NCBI RefSeq assembly: GCF_019244115.1 | Contig: NZ_JAFATE010000344.1 | Coordinates: 1 to 36,560 of the forward strand | Direction of reading: 5' to 3' | DNA from: Bradyrhizobium sp. | GTDB taxonomy: Bacteria > Pseudomonadota > Alphaproteobacteria > Rhizobiales > Xanthobacteraceae | Length of the DNA stretch: 36,560 bases | Shown: positions 4,070-17,663 of the stretch, one piece after another | Layout: every line of letters begins with the position of its first letter | How positions within the stretch are numbered: the stretch's first letter is position 1 | Program-made: the position numbers and the translations under genes | Notes under the pieces: model-generated | Databases searched by the model: none | The model's input: the letters and a program-made list of their open reading frames with translations, nothing else | What the model was told of the DNA's origin: nothing

Positions 4070-6358
4070 GTGGGGCATATGGCGGAGCCGGGCAGAAGGC
4101 CGCGGACGCAGGGAATTGCCGGGACCTGGCCGCTCGGTGGACGGGCGCAGGCCGGCGGTTTTGCGCCAGTCGACTTCGAGGCCTGGTCGTCGTTCGTCGC
4201 CAGGCTCAAGGCGTGGATTCGCGCGGAAGCGGGCGCCGGCCGGCTTTTGCCCTGGGTGCCGGTCGCCTTCGGGGCCGGCATTGCGCTGTATTTCACGGCC
4301 GACCGCGAGCCCGTGCTGTGGGTCACGGCGCTGCCCGCATTGGTTCTGTGCGGCGTCTGCTGGCCGATGCGGCGGCACCGGCTGTTCGCGGTCGCCGTCC
4401 TGCTCGCGGCAGTGGCATCGGGCTTTGCGACCGCGACCTTCCGGACCGCCCACGTTGGCCACACCGTGCTGGCGCGGCCGCTCTATTCGGTCGCGCTGTC
4501 GGGCTTTGTCGAGACGCGCGATATCCGCGAGAAGACCGACCGTTTCGTGCTGCGCGTGACGGCGATGGAAAGCCAGCGCGGGCATGTGACGCTCGACCGC
4601 GTCAGGCTATCGGTTAAAAAGGGGACCGCACCCGACGTCGGCAGTTTCGTCGAGCTAAAGGCGCGGCTGATGCCGCCGCTCGCGCCGCTTCGCCCGGGGT
4701 CCTACGACTTCGCCCGCGACCTGTTTTTTCAGGGCATCGGCGCCTCAGGCTTTGCGATGGGTGCGATCAGGACTGCCGCGCCGCCCGAGAGCGGCGGCCT
4801 CGCGCTGCGCTATGCGGCCCTCATGCAGAACCTGCGCGATGCGATCGACGCCCGCATCCGCACCCGGCTCGATGGCGACGAGCGGGCAATCGCGACCGCG
4901 CTCCTGACCGGGCGGCGCGATGCGATCACCGAGCCCGTCAATGATGCAATGTTCATCTCGGGGCTCGGCCACGTGCTGTCGATCTCCGGCTATCACATGG
5001 CCGTGGTCGCCGGCGTCGTCTTCTTTGCCGTGCGCGCGCTGCTCGCGCTGTTTCCCGCGCTGACCGTCGGTTTTCCGATCAAGAAGTGGGCGGCCGCCGC
5101 GGCGCTCGCCGCATCCGCCTTCTATCTGCTGCTGTCGGGCGCCGAGGTCGCGACGCAAAGATCATTCTACATGACGGCGGTCGTCCTGATCGCGGTGATC
5201 GTCGATCGCCGCGCCATCACCTTCCGCACGCTGGCGCTGGCCGCGATGATCGTGCTCGTGATCGCGCCGGAGGCGCTGGTGCATCCGAGTTTCCAGATGT
5301 CGTTCGCGGCGACGCTCGGCCTGGTCGCGCTGGTGCAGTTCGGCATGCCGCGGCTGCTTGCCTCCGCCGACAGCTCCACGACGGCGCGGGTGGCGCTGTG
5401 GAGCGGGCGGGAACTCATGATGCTGCTGTTCGCCTCGCTGGTGGCGGGGCTTGCGACCACGCCCTATGCGGCCTTTCATTTCCACCGCGTGACGCCTTAC
5501 GGCGTGCTCGCCAATCTCGCGGCAATGCCGGTGGTCTCGGCGGTGGTGATGCCTGCGGGAATCATCGGGCTGCTCGCCATGCCATTCGGCTTCGACGGGG
5601 TGTGCTGGCAAGCGATGGGCCTCGGCATCGACTGGATGATCGCGGTGACGCGGTGGGTTGCGGCGCTCCCCGGGGCGGTCGGACGCGTCGCCGGGTTCGG
5701 CGCCGGTCCCCTCATCCTCGCGAGCCCTGGCCTCATCCTGCTCGGCTTGCTGCGCACACCGCTGCGCTGGTCGGGCGCGGCCTTGCTCGCGCTGGCGGTC
5801 GTGTGGGCCGCGGCTACGCCCCGGCCGGATATCCTGATCTCCGGCGATGGGCACAACGTCGCCGTGCGGGGCCGGGATGGGCAATTGCATCTGATGCGGA
5901 CCAGCAAGGACGCCTTCCTGTTCAAGGAATGGCTGGCGGCGGATGCGGACGCGCGCGGCGTGACCGATCCGTCACTCTCGAGCGGCGTCTCCTGCGACGA
6001 AGCGGGTTGCGTGGTGCCGAAGGCCGACGGCGCGCTGGTCGCGCTCAGCCTGCGCGCCGACGCGCTGGCCGATGACTGCGCGCGGGCCGCACTCGTCGTC
6101 AGTGCGCGGCAAGCGCCCGCGTCCTGCGCCGCCTCGGTGATCGGCCGCGAGCGCGTGCATCGGGAGGGCGCGCTGGCGCTGCGGCAGCGGGGCGATGGCT
6201 TTGTCGTGGACGCGGTCAGGCCGCGCGGCATGGACCGGCCCTGGTCGCCGGCGACGGGCGCTGGCGCAGAGACCGATACGTCGTTTATTCCGAAAGCTTC
6301 GGCGCCGCGCGGGCCGGACGCGACACCCTCCGAGGCCGACCTTCAAGCGGACGACTAG
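4070..6358 (+). CDS. comEC: ComEC/Rec2-family competence/DNA uptake channel protein (start GTG 4070 or ATG 4079)
   Basis: 762 aa polytopic protein; ComEC competence-domain motifs GLGHVLSISGYHMAVVAGVVFF, GLATTPYAAFHFHRVTPYGVLANLAAMPVVS. Confidence 0.9.
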   Translation: MGHMAEPGRRPRTQGIAGTWPLGGRAQAGGFAPVDFEAWSSFVARLKAWIRAEAGAGRLLPWVPVAFGAGIALYFTADREPVLWVTALPALVLCGVCWPMRRHRLFAVAVLLAAVASGFATATFRTAHVGHTVLARPLYSVALSGFVETRDIREKTDRFVLRVTAMESQRGHVTLDRVRLSVKKGTAPDVGSFVELKARLMPPLAPLRPGSYDFARDLFFQGIGASGFAMGAIRTAAPPESGGLALRYAALMQNLRDAIDARIRTRLDGDERAIATALLTGRRDAITEPVNDAMFISGLGHVLSISGYHMAVVAGVVFFAVRALLALFPALTVGFPIKKWAAAAALAASAFYLLLSGAEVATQRSFYMTAVVLIAVIVDRRAITFRTLALAAMIVLVIAPEALVHPSFQMSFAATLGLVALVQFGMPRLLASADSSTTARVALWSGRELMMLLFASLVAGLATTPYAAFHFHRVTPYGVLANLAAMPVVSAVVMPAGIIGLLAMPFGFDGVCWQAMGLGIDWMIAVTRWVAALPGAVGRVAGFGAGPLILASPGLILLGLLRTPLRWSGAALLALAVVWAAATPRPDILISGDGHNVAVRGRDGQLHLMRTSKDAFLFKEWLAADADARGVTDPSLSSGVSCDEAGCVVPKADGALVALSLRADALADDCARAALVVSARQAPASCAASVIGRERVHREGALALRQRGDGFVVDAVRPRGMDRPWSPATGAGAETDTSFIPKASAPRGPDATPSEADLQADD

Positions 6359-8562: not shown

Positions 8563-8679
8563 CGCGATCAAGTCCCCCGGTTGATGCCGTCCTGAAAATG
8601 TTCGAAATCGCTTATCGAGCAGGCTTGCCGAGGCTACCTGCAACCAGCGCTCGAAACAAATCATGAACGAACACTATAT

Positions 8680-8694
8680 GTTCGGTATGTGTTC
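8680..8694. promoter_or_regulatory. Alphaproteobacterial SOS box GTTC-N7-GTTC upstream of lexA
   Basis: GTTCGGTATGTGTTC at 8680-8694, 118 bp upstream of the lexA start. Confidence 0.85.
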
Positions 8695-9022
8695 CGCAAC
8701 TCCTTAATTTGCGGTGAACGCGGTAAATGTCGCGCGCCAACGCGAAGCGGGCGGTCCGATTATACCGACGTCTGAAATCGGGCCGAACGTATCGTCGATG
8801 ACTGCCGGTGCGAGCCGGGCATGTCGCAGATGTGCCTGTGCCGCAGCCGGATCGACGAAACTGCGACCCCGCAACGGCCGCGCGGAACTGGCATCGTGCG
8901 GCCGCGAATCGTCCGTTCGGATCTCATCGCGCTCGCAAAGCCAGTTCGGCGCGCGCACCGCTGCGCTGAGCGCGTCCCGCGATGGCGGCATGCGCGAATC
9001 AGCACCGGTCAATGCGGTGCGA

Positions 9023-10564
9023 TTAATGCACCGCGGCGTACAGAATCTTGTCCTGGGTGGCCTCGGCCGCGTTGAACTCGGCGACAATGCGGCCCGTGCG
9101 GGCCACCAGGATACGGTCGGAGACCGCGAGAATTTCGGGCAGATAGGACGAGATCACCACCACGGCTTTGCCCTCGTCGGCGAGGCGGCGGATCTCGGCA
9201 TGGATATGGGGAATGGTGCCGACGTCGACGCCGCGCGTCGGCTCGTCGAAAATGACGATCGAGGGATCCTGGCCGAGCGATTTGGCCAGCACCACCTTCT
9301 GCTGGTTGCCGCCGGACAGTTCGACAATTTTCGCCTTGCGCTGCAGCGCGTTGATCTTGAGCCGCTCGACCCAGTAGTTGGCCAGTTTCGAGCGGCGGGC
9401 GCGCGACAGCAGGAAGCTGAAACCTAATCTTGTGGCGAGCTTGCCGATATAGACGTTGTCGTCGACGATCATGGTTTCGAAGAAGCCGTTGGCCTTGCGG
9501 TCCTCGGTGATGTAGGCGATGCCATCGTCGATCGCCTGCCGCGGCACGCGGTAGCGGATCGGCTTGCCGCGCAGCCGGATCGTGCCGCCATTGACCAGAT
9601 TGCGCTTGAGCGCCCCGAAGATGATTTTTGCGATCTCGGTGCGGCCTGACCCGATCAGGCCGGCGATGCCGACCACTTCGCCGGCATAGACCGAGAACGA
9701 CATGTTCTTGACCACCATGCCCATGGTGACGTTCTCGACCGTCAGCACTTTCTCGCGGCGCTGGTTGGCCGCCTTGCTGCGCTGATAGATCCCCTGCGCC
9801 ACCTGGCGGCCGACCATGTGCTGCACCAGCGCGTCGCGGTTGAGCGATTTCGCCGGCGCCGTGATCACCAGCCGCCCGTCGCGGAGCACGGTGATGCGGT
9901 CGGCGATCTGCAGCGATTCTTCCAGCGCGTGCGAGATGTAGATGATGGCAACGCCGCGCGCGCGCAGGTCGCGGACCAGATGGAAGAAGTGCACGATCTC
10001 TTCCGGCGTCAGGCTTGCCGTCGGCTCGTCAAAGATGATGATGCGCGCCTTGTTGTAGATCGCGCGCGCGATCTCGACCATCTGCTTCTTGGCGGTGCCG
10101 AGCAGAGCGACGGGCGTCGCCGGGTCGACGTGGAAATTGAGCGATTGCAAAAGCTGCTGCGCCTGGATGTTCAGGGTGCGAAAACGCGTCAGCAGTTTTT
10201 CGTTGCCGAGCTCGATGTTCTGGGCCGCCGTCATGGTCGGGACCAGGCTGGTCTCCTGATAGACCATGCAGATGCCGGCCGCGAGCGCATCGCGCGGCTG
10301 CCCGAAATCGACGCGGCGGCCATCGACATGGATGTCGCCCGACGTGAGCTGGATCGCGCCGGCGATCGCCTTGCACAGCGTCGATTTTCCGGCGCCGTTC
10401 TCGCCGACCAGCGCATGGACCTCGCCGGCGAAGAGATCGAAGTCAATACCCTCGATGGCGTGGACGCCGCCGTAGATCTTGGCTCCGCCGGTGACCTGCA
10501 GCACCGGTTTGCGGGTCTGATCGGCGGCACCGGTCGCGTTGGCAAGCGTGGCGGTGTCGTTCAT
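9023..10564 (-). CDS. Sugar-type ABC transporter ATP-binding protein (RbsA/MglA-like, two ABC domains)
   Basis: Walker A GENGAGKST, second-domain signature LSGGNQQKV; 1-nt stop/start overlap (TGATG) with the upstream gene; likely ATG start at 10564 (ORF track extends to a TTG at 10567). Confidence 0.93.
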   Translation of the reverse strand: MNDTATLANATGAADQTRKPVLQVTGGAKIYGGVHAIEGIDFDLFAGEVHALVGENGAGKSTLCKAIAGAIQLTSGDIHVDGRRVDFGQPRDALAAGICMVYQETSLVPTMTAAQNIELGNEKLLTRFRTLNIQAQQLLQSLNFHVDPATPVALLGTAKKQMVEIARAIYNKARIIIFDEPTASLTPEEIVHFFHLVRDLRARGVAIIYISHALEESLQIADRITVLRDGRLVITAPAKSLNRDALVQHMVGRQVAQGIYQRSKAANQRREKVLTVENVTMGMVVKNMSFSVYAGEVVGIAGLIGSGRTEIAKIIFGALKRNLVNGGTIRLRGKPIRYRVPRQAIDDGIAYITEDRKANGFFETMIVDDNVYIGKLATRLGFSFLLSRARRSKLANYWVERLKINALQRKAKIVELSGGNQQKVVLAKSLGQDPSIVIFDEPTRGVDVGTIPHIHAEIRRLADEGKAVVVISSYLPEILAVSDRILVARTGRIVAEFNAAEATQDKILYAAVH

Positions 10565-11682
10565 CAAAATTCTCCCGGTGCGAGCAGGAGGCAGCCTGCG
10601 CCTCGGCTTGCAATCACCGCGCCTTGCGGTGTTGCGCAGGCACCGGTGATGCCGTGGAAGCGGCCGCCGGCGCGGCTATGAATGCTGTCGGTCGCTTCGC
10701 CATCGCCGTCCAGATGGACAAGCAACCCATAGGAGCGCGGCGGTGCCCACGGCTTCTGAATGCCGAGCGCCTTGACGCCCCCAATCTGCATCGGCTCGAG
10801 ACAATCGGCCCCGCCCGCATAGGCCGGTGCGATCCAGTAGTCGGGCGGCATGCCGGCGATCATCTCCTGACGGAAATCGTCCTCTTTCAGCACGAACTCG
10901 ATCAGATGGGTGCGGCGCGCGAACAGGCCGAGATAGAACCCTCCGCGCCCGTCCGATTTGAGCCGGGCTGGATAGCCGGGCAGGTTGCGCTGGATGACGA
11001 TGGGGTGTCCTGCTCCGCTGCCAGACAGCGCCATGCGGCTGATCCGGTGGGCCCAGCTCTCGGTGAACCAGAGTTCGCTGCGATTGGGCGCAATCGCGAT
11101 CCCATAGGGATAGTGCAGGCCTTGCAGCAGCGTCGCCGGCGATCCCAGCGACGCGTCGCAGGCGATCAGGCGGCCGTGGTGCCGCTTTTCCATCAGGTCG
11201 CGGCGCCAGGCGTCAGGCGGGCGGCCGCTTGAGCCCTCGACGGCGAAGATGCGGCCGTCTGCGCTCGCCGCGACCGATGTCAGCCCGGCCAGCATCTGAC
11301 CATCGACCGCGTTGAGCCAGTGCGGGTTTGGTCGGGCAGGATCAAGCGCGACCAGCCCGCGTCCGGCGACACAGACGAGCAGCCGCCCATCGGGATGAAC
11401 CGCAAGCCCCCCGGCGTCGCCCTCGAACTCGGCCACGACCGCGCGTGATGCAAAACCGTCGCCCGACAGTCGGAGAACGCATTTTCCCGCGGAAACGAAC
11501 AGGGCGCCATCGGCCGCGGCAACGACATCGTCGAGGCCGGGCAGGGGATCGCCGATGACGGTGCAGGCATCGAGCCGGTCGTTCGGGCTGAGCGCGCCGT
11601 CGAGCGGCGGGATCGCGTTGTCTTCGCCGTCGCGGTTGATGACGCTGCGGATGTCGCGGAGAAAATGGTCGAACAGTCCCAC
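10564..11682 (-). CDS. Strictosidine synthase-like/SMP-30-type beta-propeller protein
   Basis: 372 aa; GTG start; motifs WFTESWAHRISRMALSG, IVIQRNLPGYPARLKSDGRGGFYLGLF resembling strictosidine synthase/APMAP-like proteins. Confidence 0.8.
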   Translation of the reverse strand: MGLFDHFLRDIRSVINRDGEDNAIPPLDGALSPNDRLDACTVIGDPLPGLDDVVAAADGALFVSAGKCVLRLSGDGFASRAVVAEFEGDAGGLAVHPDGRLLVCVAGRGLVALDPARPNPHWLNAVDGQMLAGLTSVAASADGRIFAVEGSSGRPPDAWRRDLMEKRHHGRLIACDASLGSPATLLQGLHYPYGIAIAPNRSELWFTESWAHRISRMALSGSGAGHPIVIQRNLPGYPARLKSDGRGGFYLGLFARRTHLIEFVLKEDDFRQEMIAGMPPDYWIAPAYAGGADCLEPMQIGGVKALGIQKPWAPPRSYGLLVHLDGDGEATDSIHSRAGGRFHGITGACATPQGAVIASRGAGCLLLAPGEF

Positions 11683-11685
11683 GGC

Positions 11686-13824
11686 CTACCCCGTCACCTT
11701 GCTTTTCGCGCCCCAATAGGCATCGTAGCCGCACCAGCTCTCGTCGGCGCCATCGAGCTTGATGCGCCCGATCCGGTTGTTCTCGAGGCCGCCGAGATAG
11801 AGATAGCCCTTGTGCTCGCGCATCGAGGTCAGCGTCGAATGCGAGATGCCGGTCGGATCCCACCAGGACTCCAGGGCCTCGCCCTGCTCGTTGAATTTCA
11901 GCACGCAGCCGTGATTGAGCGCCGGCGCCAGCCACTCGTCCGTCGGCACCTGCTTGACCATGCGAAGGCGGAAACCCGGCTTGCGCGCCGCGAGGTCGAA
12001 GGTCGGCGTGCGAATGCCGACCAGCGCCAGCCAGTAATTGCCATCGGAGGCGCGGTTGATGTTGTCGGGATTACCCGGCAGCTCGTCGATCAGGATCTCG
12101 GTCTGGCCCCGCTTTGGGCCTGCAAGCCAGTAGCGAAAGATCTTGCATAGCGAAGTCGAGGCGATCAGCAGCGATTTTCCGTCGTGGGAGACACAGACCC
12201 CGTTCGGGAAATAGAAATGGTTGATGATGGTGCGCGTGGTCTTCGTCTTGGGATCGTAGCAGACCATGCGGCCGTTCGGACGGGCCTCCAAAATGTCGAG
12301 CGTGTTGGTCGTCATCTCGTAGCGCGTGGTGCAATCGGAAAAATAGATTTTTCCGTCGGGGCCGATGTCGAGATCGTCGGCCATGCGGAGGCGGGAATCG
12401 TCGTTCAGCTTATACCAGGTGCGGTTGGTCTCGTCGGTGACCTTGAACACCTCGCCATCCGGCTTGACACCATAGACGCCCATGCCCGCAACGGCGACGA
12501 TCAAGTTCTCGTCGCGGTCGAACTGCATGCCGAGCGGCCGGCCGCCGATATGGGCGAACACTTCGCGCTTTTCGAAATTGGGGCCGGAGAAGCGGATGAT
12601 GTTGCCGTCGCGGGTCGAGCCGTAGAGGCGGTCCTGGCGGTCGAGGATGACGTCCTCCGGCCCCTCGACCTGGTTGAGCCCGATCGCCTGGGCGTTGATG
12701 AGGCGGTCGTTCTGCGCATAGGGCGAGGCCGCGCCTACCTGCACCGAGGGCGCCGGCGAGAGCGCGACAAAGGCGGGATTGACGTAGATCTTCTGGATCG
12801 CCTTGCCACGGTTCTTGGCCCATTTGACATCGATGCCGACGGCGGCGAGGAGGATGATGCCGATGACGGCCGAGGTCACGTAGCCGGGGATGCCCATCCG
12901 CACCAGGCCGTTGATCAAGAGGAAGACGATCAGGGCGCCGATCATCGCGCGCCAGACCGTGCCCTTGCCGCCGGCGAGCGAGACGCCGCCGAGCACGACC
13001 GCGGTCAGGGCCTGGAACTCCCAGCCCACGCCGGTCGTCGAGTCGGTGGAGGATTGCCGCGCCGCGTAGAAGATGCCGCTGGCCGCGCACAGCACGCCCG
13101 AGAGAACATAGGTGAAGAACAGGATCAGCCGGACGCGGATGCCGGCATGCCGCGCCGCCTTGCGGCTGGCGCCGATTGCCGTGAGATGCCAGCCATAACG
13201 CGAGCGCGACAGGAAGATGTGGCAGACCAGCAGCACGACGAAGAGCGTCGCGGCATTGATCGGGATGCCGAGCACGCTGCCGACGCCGAGAAAATCCCAG
13301 GCATCGCTGTCGACCGAGTTGGTGGCGAACACCTGGGCGTAGCTGGTGTTGAGGAGGTTGACGCAGGCGCGCAGGATGATCAGCATCACCAGCGTAGTCA
13401 GGAACGGCCGCGTCTTCAAGAAGCCGATCAGGAGCCCGTTGACGCTGCCGAGCGCGGCGCCAACCGCAAGCGTCGCCGGGATCGCGAGGGACACGGGAAG
13501 CTCGAGCACGAACAGGAAGTACAGCGCCGAGAAATTGCAGAACGCAAAGATGGCGCCGACCGAGAGATCGATGCCGCCGCTGATCAGGCAAAACCCCATC
13601 GCGAGCGCGACGAAACCGAACTCGGCGAACAGGCGCAGCAGCGACAGCGTGTTCTGGATCGTAGCGTAGTCCGGGATCGTGAGCGCGAAATAGAGCCAGA
13701 GAGCGATCATGACCGTGAACGGAATCACGGGCTCGAACCACTGCTTCAACAGCAGCTCTGACAGGAGCAGGCGCGGCGAGAAGCGCCGCACCGAGGCGGT
13801 CCATGAATCCGCAGCCATCGACAT
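11686..13824 (-). CDS. Fusion protein: RbsC-type ABC transporter permease + C-terminal strictosidine synthase-like/SMP-30 beta-propeller
   Basis: N-terminal about 350 aa polytopic BPD_transp_2-like permease (SGGIDLSVGAIFAFCNF, VLGGVSLAGGKGTVWRAMIGALIV), then a continuous frame into LNQVEGPEDVILDRQDRLYGSTRDGNIIRFSG...YFSDCTTRYEM...NGVCVSHDGKSLLIASTSLCKIFRYWLAGPKRGQTEILIDELPGNPDNI; start trimmed to ATG 13824. Confidence 0.88.
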   Translation of the reverse strand: MSMAADSWTASVRRFSPRLLLSELLLKQWFEPVIPFTVMIALWLYFALTIPDYATIQNTLSLLRLFAEFGFVALAMGFCLISGGIDLSVGAIFAFCNFSALYFLFVLELPVSLAIPATLAVGAALGSVNGLLIGFLKTRPFLTTLVMLIILRACVNLLNTSYAQVFATNSVDSDAWDFLGVGSVLGIPINAATLFVVLLVCHIFLSRSRYGWHLTAIGASRKAARHAGIRVRLILFFTYVLSGVLCAASGIFYAARQSSTDSTTGVGWEFQALTAVVLGGVSLAGGKGTVWRAMIGALIVFLLINGLVRMGIPGYVTSAVIGIILLAAVGIDVKWAKNRGKAIQKIYVNPAFVALSPAPSVQVGAASPYAQNDRLINAQAIGLNQVEGPEDVILDRQDRLYGSTRDGNIIRFSGPNFEKREVFAHIGGRPLGMQFDRDENLIVAVAGMGVYGVKPDGEVFKVTDETNRTWYKLNDDSRLRMADDLDIGPDGKIYFSDCTTRYEMTTNTLDILEARPNGRMVCYDPKTKTTRTIINHFYFPNGVCVSHDGKSLLIASTSLCKIFRYWLAGPKRGQTEILIDELPGNPDNINRASDGNYWLALVGIRTPTFDLAARKPGFRLRMVKQVPTDEWLAPALNHGCVLKFNEQGEALESWWDPTGISHSTLTSMREHKGYLYLGGLENNRIGRIKLDGADESWCGYDAYWGAKSKVTG

Positions 13825-13901
13825 CGGAAAAGCCCTCCCGGTCACAACGCGCGAACTGCCGGCCCGCATTTGTCGCAGGCCGGCGCGACCCACGTCCCAG
13901 A

Positions 13902-14927
13902 CTACTTCTTCGGAAGGGCGAAGCAGTTGGCGCCGCTGGCGTTGCTCTTATCGAGCCAGATCGGCCGGGTGTAATATTCGAGATGTTTTGTGCCGGGCTT
14001 GTCGCCGGACTCCAGCAGGGTCTGCGCCGCGAACATCAGGTCGTGGCCCTGTTCGGTCGCCTTGTAGCTCAGGAACTTGTAAAAATTGCCCTGATTGAGC
14101 TGGTCGCAATCGAGCTGCGAGCCTTCGCCCGAGGCATAGATCTTCACGTCGTCGATCTTGTTCGCATTGCGGATCGCCTGCGCCGCACCGGACTGCATGA
14201 TGCCCCAGAAGCCGACGCTGGCGCAGAGATCCGGGTGCTGCTGAATGACGGTCGCGGTGATGTTGATTGCGGTGTTGGTGTCCCAGTTGGCGGCCTGGTT
14301 GGACACGACCTTGATCGCCGAATCCTTGCCAAACACCTCCATGATGCCGGCGACCTGGTCGACGCTGGCGGCCGCGGTGAGCTCGCCCTGGATGATCTGG
14401 ACCTTGCCCGATTTGCCCGAGCCGGAGCCGCACTGCTTGACCACGTCGGTCGCCAGCATCTTGCCGATCTCGTTCCAGTCGGCGCCGACGAAGGCGCCGG
14501 ACTTGTAGTTCGACGACATGTTGATCTGGATGACATGCGTGCCCTGGCTCTCGGCCCGCTTGAGGTCCTTCATCAGCAGCGTGACGCTCGGATTCTGCAC
14601 GATCAGCACGTCGGGCTTCTGGTCGACCAGCGCGGTCAACGCCTGCTGCATGGCGGAGGGATTGTTGTTGGGATCGCGCACGATGTATTTCATGCCGCGC
14701 CACTCGGCCTCCTCCTGCACCACGCGGCCCCATTCGTCGGACAGCGGCACGCCGAGGGCAATCGGCAGATAGGCGATGCTCTTGCCCTTCAACGACTTGT
14801 CGTAGTCGGCGCGGAGTTCGCGCGCGGTCTTGGTGCCGCCTTCCTCCTGCGCAGACGCCATCAATGGCAGCGCTGCGAGTGCGAGCCCCGCAACCGCTGC
14901 CGTCCACGCTTTCGAGACCTTGCTCAT
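13902..14927 (-). CDS. Sugar-type ABC transporter periplasmic substrate-binding protein
   Basis: 341 aa with signal peptide MSKVSKAWTAAVAGLALAALPLMASAQ and a periplasmic-binding-protein type-1-like fold sequence (ALTALVDQKPDVLIVQNPSVT...). Confidence 0.88.
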   Translation of the reverse strand: MSKVSKAWTAAVAGLALAALPLMASAQEEGGTKTARELRADYDKSLKGKSIAYLPIALGVPLSDEWGRVVQEEAEWRGMKYIVRDPNNNPSAMQQALTALVDQKPDVLIVQNPSVTLLMKDLKRAESQGTHVIQINMSSNYKSGAFVGADWNEIGKMLATDVVKQCGSGSGKSGKVQIIQGELTAAASVDQVAGIMEVFGKDSAIKVVSNQAANWDTNTAINITATVIQQHPDLCASVGFWGIMQSGAAQAIRNANKIDDVKIYASGEGSQLDCDQLNQGNFYKFLSYKATEQGHDLMFAAQTLLESGDKPGTKHLEYYTRPIWLDKSNASGANCFALPKK

Positions 14928-14972
14928 GATTTCCTCCCGGTTTCTCGATGTGAAAGCTTCTTGAATTTCCGA

Positions 14973-15986
14973 TCAGTCGCCTTGTCGCGCTGTTTCCTCG
15001 TCGCGGGGATGCAAAAAATTGTCGAGCACGATGGCCGCGAGCAGCACGATGCCCTTGATGATGTTCTGCACCTCGTTGTTGACGTCCATGATGGTGAAGG
15101 CGTTGAGCAGGATGCCGATCAGCACGCAGCCGACGACCACGCTGAACACGCTGCCACGGCCGCCGACCAGACTGATGCCGCCGATCACCACCACCAGCAC
15201 CACGTCGTAGATCATCGTGCCCTGGATGATCATCATCTGCATGCTGCCGGTGGTGCCGACCCAGACCAGGCCCGCGATCCAGGCGAGCAGGGCGACCAGG
15301 ACGTGCTCGAGCACGATCAGCGGCCGCAGCGCAACGCCGGACAGCCGCGCGGCTTCCGGGTTGTCGCCCTGGGCGTAGATGAAACGACCGGTCGAGGTTT
15401 TCGACAGGAACAGATGCATGACGATCGCCGCGCCCGCGAACACGAAGATCGGCACGGGAATCCCGAACAGCTGTCCGCCACCGAGATACATCAGCGCCGG
15501 CGCGTCCTTCGGCGCATAGAGCACCCAGGCCGGCGCGAAGGAGAACGCAAGCCCGTAGATCACAAAGCCCGCCGCGAGGGTGACGAACAGCGCCGGCGCC
15601 TCGACGAAAGCGACCATGATGCCGTTGACGATACCGATTGCGAGCGCGATCGCGAGTGCAATCAGACAGGCCCAGCCGATCGGCAGGCCCTTCTGCATTT
15701 CAATGAGAGCGATCGCCCAGGAGCCGGCCATGATCGCGACTTCGCTCAAATCGATGCCGCGGCTGATCACGATCAGTCCCATGCCCAGGCCAAGGATGCC
15801 GAGGATCGAGATGCTGCGCAGCAGGTTGAGCAGATTAGAGAGCGTCGCAAAACCGTGCAAAGTGAGGCCGAAGCCGATCAGCAGCGCGATCGTGATCAAC
15901 AGAACGATCTGCTCCTGGTTGGGCTTGGCCAGGTTCAGGCGAAGGCGGGACGTGCGCGGCGGGGCAAGAGGCGAGTCAAAGGCCAC
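14973..15986 (-). CDS. ABC transporter permease (RbsC-like)
   Basis: 337 aa; GTG start; LGMGLIVISRGIDLSEVAIMAGSWAIAL, VVIGGISLVGGRGSVFSVVVGCVLIGIL. Confidence 0.9.
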   Translation of the reverse strand: MAFDSPLAPPRTSRLRLNLAKPNQEQIVLLITIALLIGFGLTLHGFATLSNLLNLLRSISILGILGLGMGLIVISRGIDLSEVAIMAGSWAIALIEMQKGLPIGWACLIALAIALAIGIVNGIMVAFVEAPALFVTLAAGFVIYGLAFSFAPAWVLYAPKDAPALMYLGGGQLFGIPVPIFVFAGAAIVMHLFLSKTSTGRFIYAQGDNPEAARLSGVALRPLIVLEHVLVALLAWIAGLVWVGTTGSMQMMIIQGTMIYDVVLVVVIGGISLVGGRGSVFSVVVGCVLIGILLNAFTIMDVNNEVQNIIKGIVLLAAIVLDNFLHPRDEETARQGD

Positions 15987-16232
15987 GGCAGCTCCGCGAC
16001 GCAGCGTGGCGCTGCCTTAGTGGTGGACGAGGCCGCGACCTTGCGCATCACATCCCTCCCAAGTTTTTTGTTGGGATCAACCTTCCACGGGATGGCGGCG
16101 CTCGTCAAATATCAAATGAAGTGCGGCGCGTGCGGTGATGCTGAAACCAAACAATGCGATTCGGTCGACGTACGAGACGTGCAGGCCTCGATCGCGATCG
16201 TCAGCGAGCGCCCATGTATGCCACGACGAGCG

Positions 16233-16251
16233 TTTGAAACTAAGTTTCAAA
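16233..16251. promoter_or_regulatory. Perfect 19-bp inverted repeat, candidate operator for the ABC/propeller operon
   Basis: TTTGAAACT-A-AGTTTCAAA; contains TGAAAC-N3-GTTTCA, which resembles the KdgR (IclR-family) consensus. Confidence 0.6.
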
Positions 16252-16346
16252 TCGCATCGCAACGGTAGGATGATGAGATGCGTTTCAATGCGCGATGCAC
16301 ACTATCGGCGTTATCGCGATAGGCGGTGTAGCACTGGCCCTTCCAC

Positions 16347-16440
16347 GTCGTCATGGCCGGGCTTGTCCCGGCCATCCACGTCTTAGACCCAAAAAGGAAG
16401 AAAGACGTGGATGCCCGGCACAAGGCCGGGCATGACGACT
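16347..16440. repeat. Bradyrhizobium-type palindromic intergenic repeat, copy 1
   Basis: cgtcgtcatggccgggcttgtcccggccatccacgtctt...aagacgtggatgcccggcacaaggccgggcatgacgac: two hairpins in head-to-head arrangement; matches 32011-32102 in inverted orientation. Confidence 0.85.
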
Positions 16441-16451
16441 GTTGGGATTGC

Positions 16452-17663
16452 TTATTCCGGCAGCCGCAAAATCTGGCAGGGTGAGCCGGCCTTAGCCGCC
16501 GGCGCGAACGGCGGACGGATCACCAGCGCCTGTGCTGAAGCGAGAAAGCCGAGCAGGGACGAGTCCTGGTGCGTGACCGGCGTCGCAATCCATGCGCCGT
16601 CCGCGCGCCGTTCGAGGCGTGCGCGCAGATAGTCCTCGCGCAGATCGTTGGCGTCGAGGTCGCGGCCGAGCACGGCCTGCTCGCGGGCATCGTGAAGCAC
16701 GCGGGCGCCGGACAGCGCCCGGATCAGCGGCACCAGGAACAACAGGCTGCAGACATAGGAGGAGACGGGATTGCCGGGCAGGCCGATCACGCGCATCGCG
16801 CCGAGCCGCCCGTGCATCATCGGCTTGCCCGGCCGCATCGCGATCTTCCAGAAGGCGATTGTCACGCCTTCGGCCTCCAGGGATTCCTTGACCAGATCGT
16901 GATCGCCGACGGAGGCGCCGCCGGTGGTGATGAGAATGTCGGCCGCTGCGTCACGCGCCTGACGGATTCCTGCCGTGGTTGCCGCTGTCGTGTCGGCGGC
17001 GACGCCGAGATCGATCGTCTCGGCGCCCTCGGCGCGCGCCAGCGCCCGCAGCGCATAGCCATTGGAATAGACGATCTGCCCGGGCCCGGGGATGCTTCCG
17101 GGCATCACCAGTTCGTCGCCAGTGGCGAGCAGGGCCACTTTCGGCCGCCGCCGCACCGGGAGTTTTGGATAGTTCATGCTGGCGGCGAGCGACAGATCGC
17201 GGTCGCTGAGGCGCCTGCCGGCTTTCAGCAGCACGTCGCCCTCGCGGAAATCGACGCCGGCGGGACGGATGTGGCGTCCGGGCCTCGCCGCTTCCGTAAT
17301 CCTGATCGTGCTGCCGTCGGCGATGGTGTCTTCCTGGATCACGACGGCGTCGGCCCCTTTCGGAATGACGCCGCCGGTGAAGATGCGGGCGGCTTCGGCG
17401 GGGCCGATCGCACGGTCGAACGGCCGGCCGGCTGCGACCTCGCCGATGACCGTGAGCCGCGCGTCGGGCTTGGTGGCATCCTGCGAGCGCACGGCATAGC
17501 CGTCCATCGCCGACATCGCCTCCGGCGGCTGGGTACGGAGCGCCGCCACATCGCGTGCCAGAATGCGGTGGTAGGCCGCATCGAGTGCGATCATCTCCTC
17601 GGGAAGCGGCTCGCTGCCTGCAAGGATGGCGGCAATCGCATCGGCAACCGGCATCAAGCCCAC
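16452..17663 (-). CDS. moeA: Molybdopterin molybdenumtransferase
   Basis: 403 aa; MGLMPVADAIAAILAGSEPLPEEMIALDAAYHRILARDVAALRTQPPEAMSAMDGYAVRSQD, TGGASVGDHDLV, GLPGNPVSSYV. Confidence 0.95.
   Translation of the reverse strand: MGLMPVADAIAAILAGSEPLPEEMIALDAAYHRILARDVAALRTQPPEAMSAMDGYAVRSQDATKPDARLTVIGEVAAGRPFDRAIGPAEAARIFTGGVIPKGADAVVIQEDTIADGSTIRITEAARPGRHIRPAGVDFREGDVLLKAGRRLSDRDLSLAASMNYPKLPVRRRPKVALLATGDELVMPGSIPGPGQIVYSNGYALRALARAEGAETIDLGVAADTTAATTAGIRQARDAAADILITTGGASVGDHDLVKESLEAEGVTIAFWKIAMRPGKPMMHGRLGAMRVIGLPGNPVSSYVCSLLFLVPLIRALSGARVLHDAREQAVLGRDLDANDLREDYLRARLERRADGAWIATPVTHQDSSLLGFLASAQALVIRPPFAPAAKAGSPCQILRLPE

Follow-up and report, generated by a model that had tools for sequence, protein, structure and literature searches.

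The window analysed here, a 36,560-nucleotide stretch of Bradyrhizobium sp. DNA, encodes a single protein in which a permease of the CUT2 importer type is joined in frame to a six-bladed propeller domain (propeller A), and the gene encoding this protein lies within a five-gene operon whose order is fixed. Taken as a whole, these features are best explained, with a probability of about one half, by a CUT2-type importer in which a cytosolic propeller A would hydrolyse an incoming ester or lactone where the channel opens into the cytosol, with the product of the adjacent gene (propeller B) serving as a non-catalytic partner. Primary ABC importers release their substrates unmodified. A conserved enzyme-like domain within a permease would be an unusual form of coupling between transport and chemistry at the membrane.

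The fused protein is 712 amino acids long, begins MSMAADSW and is encoded by a single uninterrupted frame on the minus strand (11686..13824), with the sequence GGGAGG preceding the ATG. Pfam searches identify a BPD_transp_2 domain at residues 59-329 (E 1.4e-36), followed by SSL_N at 368-412 (E 7e-16), SGL at 427-603 (E 1.2e-13) and Str_synth (strictosidine synthase) at 483-569 (E 2.6e-23). The permease part comprises residues 1-335 (12820..13824, minus strand) and propeller A residues 368-704 (11713..12723, minus strand). A preliminary description of this DNA had proposed that one frame encodes an RbsC-type permease followed by a propeller tethered to the channel; the open frame and the Pfam domains bear this out, and the motifs quoted at the time are present in the protein. 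Although widespread, the family goes by no other name in public records than ‘SMP-30/gluconolactonase/LRE family protein’ or ‘ABC transporter permease’, so that one half of the fusion, the transporter or the enzyme, is always hidden. No description of the fusion was found in the literature searched, coverage of which was incomplete, but the architecture is probably already listed in domain databases.

Could the fusion be an artefact, with a frameshift or misassembly joining two separate genes? The genome from which the window derives is a 915-contig draft, which leaves room for such errors. However, we collected 129 distinct full-length fused relatives from same-genus, family, order, class and phylum samples, together with named genomes and plasmids, and the frame is joined in all of them. 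Nearly all are around 700-740 amino acids in length, their propellers are 49-100% identical to that in the window, and they come from independent assemblies that include single-contig genomes and complete plasmids. An artefact is rejected on these grounds and we give it next to no chance. Apart from fragments at contig ends, interrupted copies were seen at three loci only (L071, L072 and L074, from strains Pear76 and Pear77), where an identical 1-nt deletion near 6228 breaks the fused gene. The deletion is confined to the assemblies of these two strains, is present in two copies within one strain and looks like a local assembly fault or a sequencing error of a systematic kind, prompted by a GC-rich motif.

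Hosts of the fused relatives include many Alphaproteobacteria, and both soil and marine bacteria are represented. Within the same-genus sample, 39 of 120 genomes contain a match at E<=1e-30. Extending the search for the two-domain architecture across the Rhizobiales likewise recovered fused relatives: 29 of the 249 genomes in the order sample contain a match at E<=1e-60, one of these genomes (G526, discussed below) having an unfused permease. Matches were found in 12/385 genomes of the class sample, two of them free-standing propellers, and in the phylum sample the matches outside the window's own class are free-standing propellers. The complete fused operon is also present on Paraburkholderia and Pantoea plasmids, suggesting that it has spread to these bacteria by transfer. 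Some genomes carry two to four copies, and tandem copies are seen at L206/L207.

In the window, the operon runs on the minus strand in the order permease 1 (BPD_transp_2, unfused; 14973..15986), periplasmic binding protein (Peripla_BP_4; 13902..14927), permease 2 fused to propeller A, propeller B (372 amino acids; 10564..11682) and an ATPase with two ABC_tran domains that resembles RbsA, AraG and XylG (9023..10564). Propeller B starts 3 nt past the stop codon of the fused gene and its own stop codon is overlapped by the ATG of the ATPase gene. Gene order and direction are kept at all 113 fused loci with enough flanking sequence on both sides, some of these loci being near-identical or overlapping. 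Neither propeller B (10564-11682) nor the fixed five-gene block had been noticed in the preliminary description.

With BPD_transp_2 permeases, a Peripla_BP_4 binding protein and a double-domain ATPase encoded in one operon, the system has the features of CUT2 importers such as RbsABC, AraFGH and XylFGH. It differs from these in that its two permeases are unlike each other, one of them ending in a propeller at the C-terminus, and in having an extra propeller gene. None of the five proteins reaches any NCBIfam sugar-transporter equivalog cut-off, those of the named CUT2 systems (ribose, arabinose, xylose) included: the best score of the fused permease is 180 bits against a cut-off of 398 (ribose), that of the ATPase 478 against 689 (arabinose) and that of the binding protein 67 against 335 (allose). 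The operon thus belongs to the wider CUT2 family and not to its named sugar systems.

On which side of the membrane do the propellers lie? Ten transmembrane helices are predicted in the fused permease, with 18 lysine and arginine residues in the inside loops and none in the outside loops, and the linker between permease and propeller A is strongly basic. An even number of helices places the C-terminus inside, giving an N-in/C-in arrangement in agreement with the accepted topology of RbsC. A clear transmembrane segment was looked for in propeller B and is absent. Taken together, the loop charges, helix number, basic linker and lack of a membrane segment in propeller B indicate that both propellers are most likely cytosolic. 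A periplasmic propeller was rejected on the loop charges, the even predicted helix number and the positive linker; the permease half matched no solved structure by sequence. AlphaFold predicts the fused protein with only moderate confidence (pLDDT 64), so that a position of propeller A at the channel mouth is conjectural.

The nearest solved relatives of propeller A, by both sequence and fold (Foldseek), are TGW6, the strictosidine synthases and DFPase. In common with the SSL or nucleophilic-attack six-bladed propeller (N6P) hydrolases, a group that includes TGW6, DFPase, PON1 and the SMP-30 lactonases, propeller A combines SSL_N and Str_synth/SGL domains with a six-bladed fold and has the four metal-ligand positions E, N/D, N, D. 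These are E390 (12655..12657), D483 (12376..12378), N541 (12202..12204) and D587 (12064..12066), all on the minus strand. Conservation of such pocket residues had been raised earlier as a test of the propeller and, across the 129 relatives, E390, N541 and D587 are invariant, whilst position 483 is D in 113 and N in 16. The same four positions are common to 20 free-standing SSL proteins. PDB titles record DFPase mutants at E21, N120, N175 and D229, residues that are its Ca2+ ligands. Whereas TGW6, DFPase, PON1 and the SMP-30 lactonases are free or secreted enzymes, propeller A is part of a channel protein, in all likelihood on the cytosolic side, and comes with a degenerate paralogue.

Mean conservation among the fused relatives is 0.69 for the propeller domain compared with 0.59 for the permease domain, which argues that propeller A is not a decaying tag. 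Strictosidine synthase proper shares the fold and part of the sequence of propeller A but lacks equivalents of N541 and D587. Strictosidine synthase activity was rejected for propeller A, since T666, a threonine in 129/129 relatives, aligns with the catalytic glutamate of strictosidine synthase, Glu309 in Rauvolfia STR1. Four further residues (D629, H662, E670 and H671) are invariant in the fused proteins and mostly not kept in free SSLs.

Propeller B is predicted to adopt the same fold as propeller A (pTM 0.82), and its best structural matches are strictosidine synthase, TGW6, Drp35, PON1 and lactonases. The metal-ligand pattern of the hydrolases is not retained, however: the equivalent of N541 is asparagine in only 17 of 131 propeller B sequences and that of D587 is alanine, serine or glycine in 129/131, with arginine as the next residue in 127/131. 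Propeller B nevertheless has invariant residues of its own. In a tree, propellers A, propellers B and free SSLs each form one clade. Propeller B is a paralogue of propeller A that has lost the metal ligands.

A single relative lacks both propellers. In genome G526, the operon (locus L201) comprises permease 1, the binding protein, the ATPase and a permease 2 (52% identical) that is unfused; the operon lacks propeller B, and nothing in the whole genome matches propeller A. As the only unfused close relative, L201 might have represented a split ancestral form. Its permease nests inside the fused clade (support 96/92), so that propellers A and B were probably lost jointly in the G526 lineage, and the ancestral reading is rejected with moderate certainty only, since the outgroup branches in this tree are long. 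Joint loss would tie propeller A functionally to propeller B. G526 keeps its permeases, binding protein and ATPase, so transport can probably persist without either propeller, a point that weighs against the hydrolytic reading.

The main rival to hydrolysis is sensing. Propeller A might be a cytosolic sensor or gate: on binding the compound brought in, or a product further downstream, it would adjust transporter activity by trans-inhibition, much as MalK and MetN do through their regulatory domains, and propeller B would supply the other half of the sensor. That propeller A is accompanied by a degenerate propeller, and that both are absent at L201, fits such a regulatory module as well as it fits an enzyme, and H662, E670, H671 and D629 could form an interface. 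There are also propellers that retain this fold yet act in binding alone, which counts against hydrolysis. A sensor, on the other hand, need not keep the complete hydrolase-type metal site that propeller A retains without exception, and the regulatory domains of ABC importers are usually found on the ATPase, not the permease. On balance, we consider a sensor rather unlikely.

In the preferred hydrolytic scheme, the binding protein would capture a small ligand in the periplasm, and the two permeases and double ATPase would carry it inward. Propeller A, at the cytosolic end of the channel, may then hydrolyse an ester or lactone bond via a putative Ca2+-type site formed by E390, D483, N541 and D587; the incoming molecule would thereby be trapped as a (hydroxy)acid in free form, ready to be catabolised. 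Propeller B may dock on, or regulate, propeller A or the transporter. That propeller A binds a metal, that it cuts the substrate on its way out of the channel and that the propellers touch each other are inferred. The preliminary description had already suggested a coupling of transport to lactone or ester hydrolysis, or to substrate sensing; with the metal ligands intact, our results are in keeping with an imported molecule being cut or sensed on entry. Hydrolysis is supported by the retained metal-ligand positions, by the nearest relatives being enzymes and by the catabolic nature of neighbouring genes.

Those neighbours vary by clade. At four loci (L193, L207, L225 and L256) a degradative HMG-CoA reductase is encoded beside the fused operon, with HMG-CoA lyase near three of the four, making these importers candidates for mevalonate or mevalonolactone uptake. 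Other clades have CMD and quinone oxidoreductase genes, sometimes with an aminotransferase; Zn-alcohol and aldehyde dehydrogenases; 3-hydroxyisobutyrate and isopropylmalate-type dehydrogenases; or AMP-binding and acyl-CoA dehydrogenases. At another locus (L208:10804-11784), an extra free-standing SMP-30/SGL protein is encoded directly upstream of the fused operon. Since the neighbours belong mostly to acid and CoA pathways, the substrates of the family are probably hydroxy-acid-type compounds, or their lactones or esters, rather than ordinary sugars. The earlier label ‘sugar-type’ thus stands for the transporter family but not for the substrate, for which neighbours in other clades point to carboxylic or hydroxy acids and CoA-linked catabolism.

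A third possibility is that the propellers are a scaffold, recruiting a downstream enzyme or stabilising the asymmetric permease pair, with a structural metal site. Metal ions also stabilise propellers, propeller B is a propeller without a metal site and the catabolic neighbours differ between clades, all of which would be in line with this. The invariance extends to pocket residues and not only core residues, however, and the nearest relatives are enzymes; a scaffold therefore seems improbable. Returning to hydrolysis, hydroxy-acid lactones or esters would be fitting substrates for a hydrolase at the channel exit. More broadly, we tentatively propose, at somewhat less than even odds, an importer family that couples uptake directly to hydrolysis through an enzyme within the channel: the ester or lactone would be split on leaving the pore, and a pseudo-enzyme propeller would act as partner. 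The acid lactones or esters would differ by clade, as with mevalonolactone/mevalonate in the HMG-CoA reductase clade, and the clade-specific neighbours offer testable substrate guesses for importers otherwise labelled ‘sugar’.

No catabolic neighbour accompanies the window's own operon or its clade, which counts against hydrolysis. Its flanks (moeA, lexA and a HAD hydrolase) are not common to other fused loci and give no substrate hint, and inferring a substrate from them was rejected. They do reveal how the operon is situated. In 12/12 same-genus genomes checked, moeA and lexA are adjacent, ~95-230 bp apart, whereas in the window they are separated by 7.8 kb containing the five-gene block and a palindromic repeat. 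The block (8664-16452) is a clean insertion between the two genes. The repeat (16347-16439) is intergenic, lies at the edge of the insertion and has 38-nt arms that are 89% complementary; at <=2 mismatches the genome contains 72 occurrences of its core (0 for a backward control).
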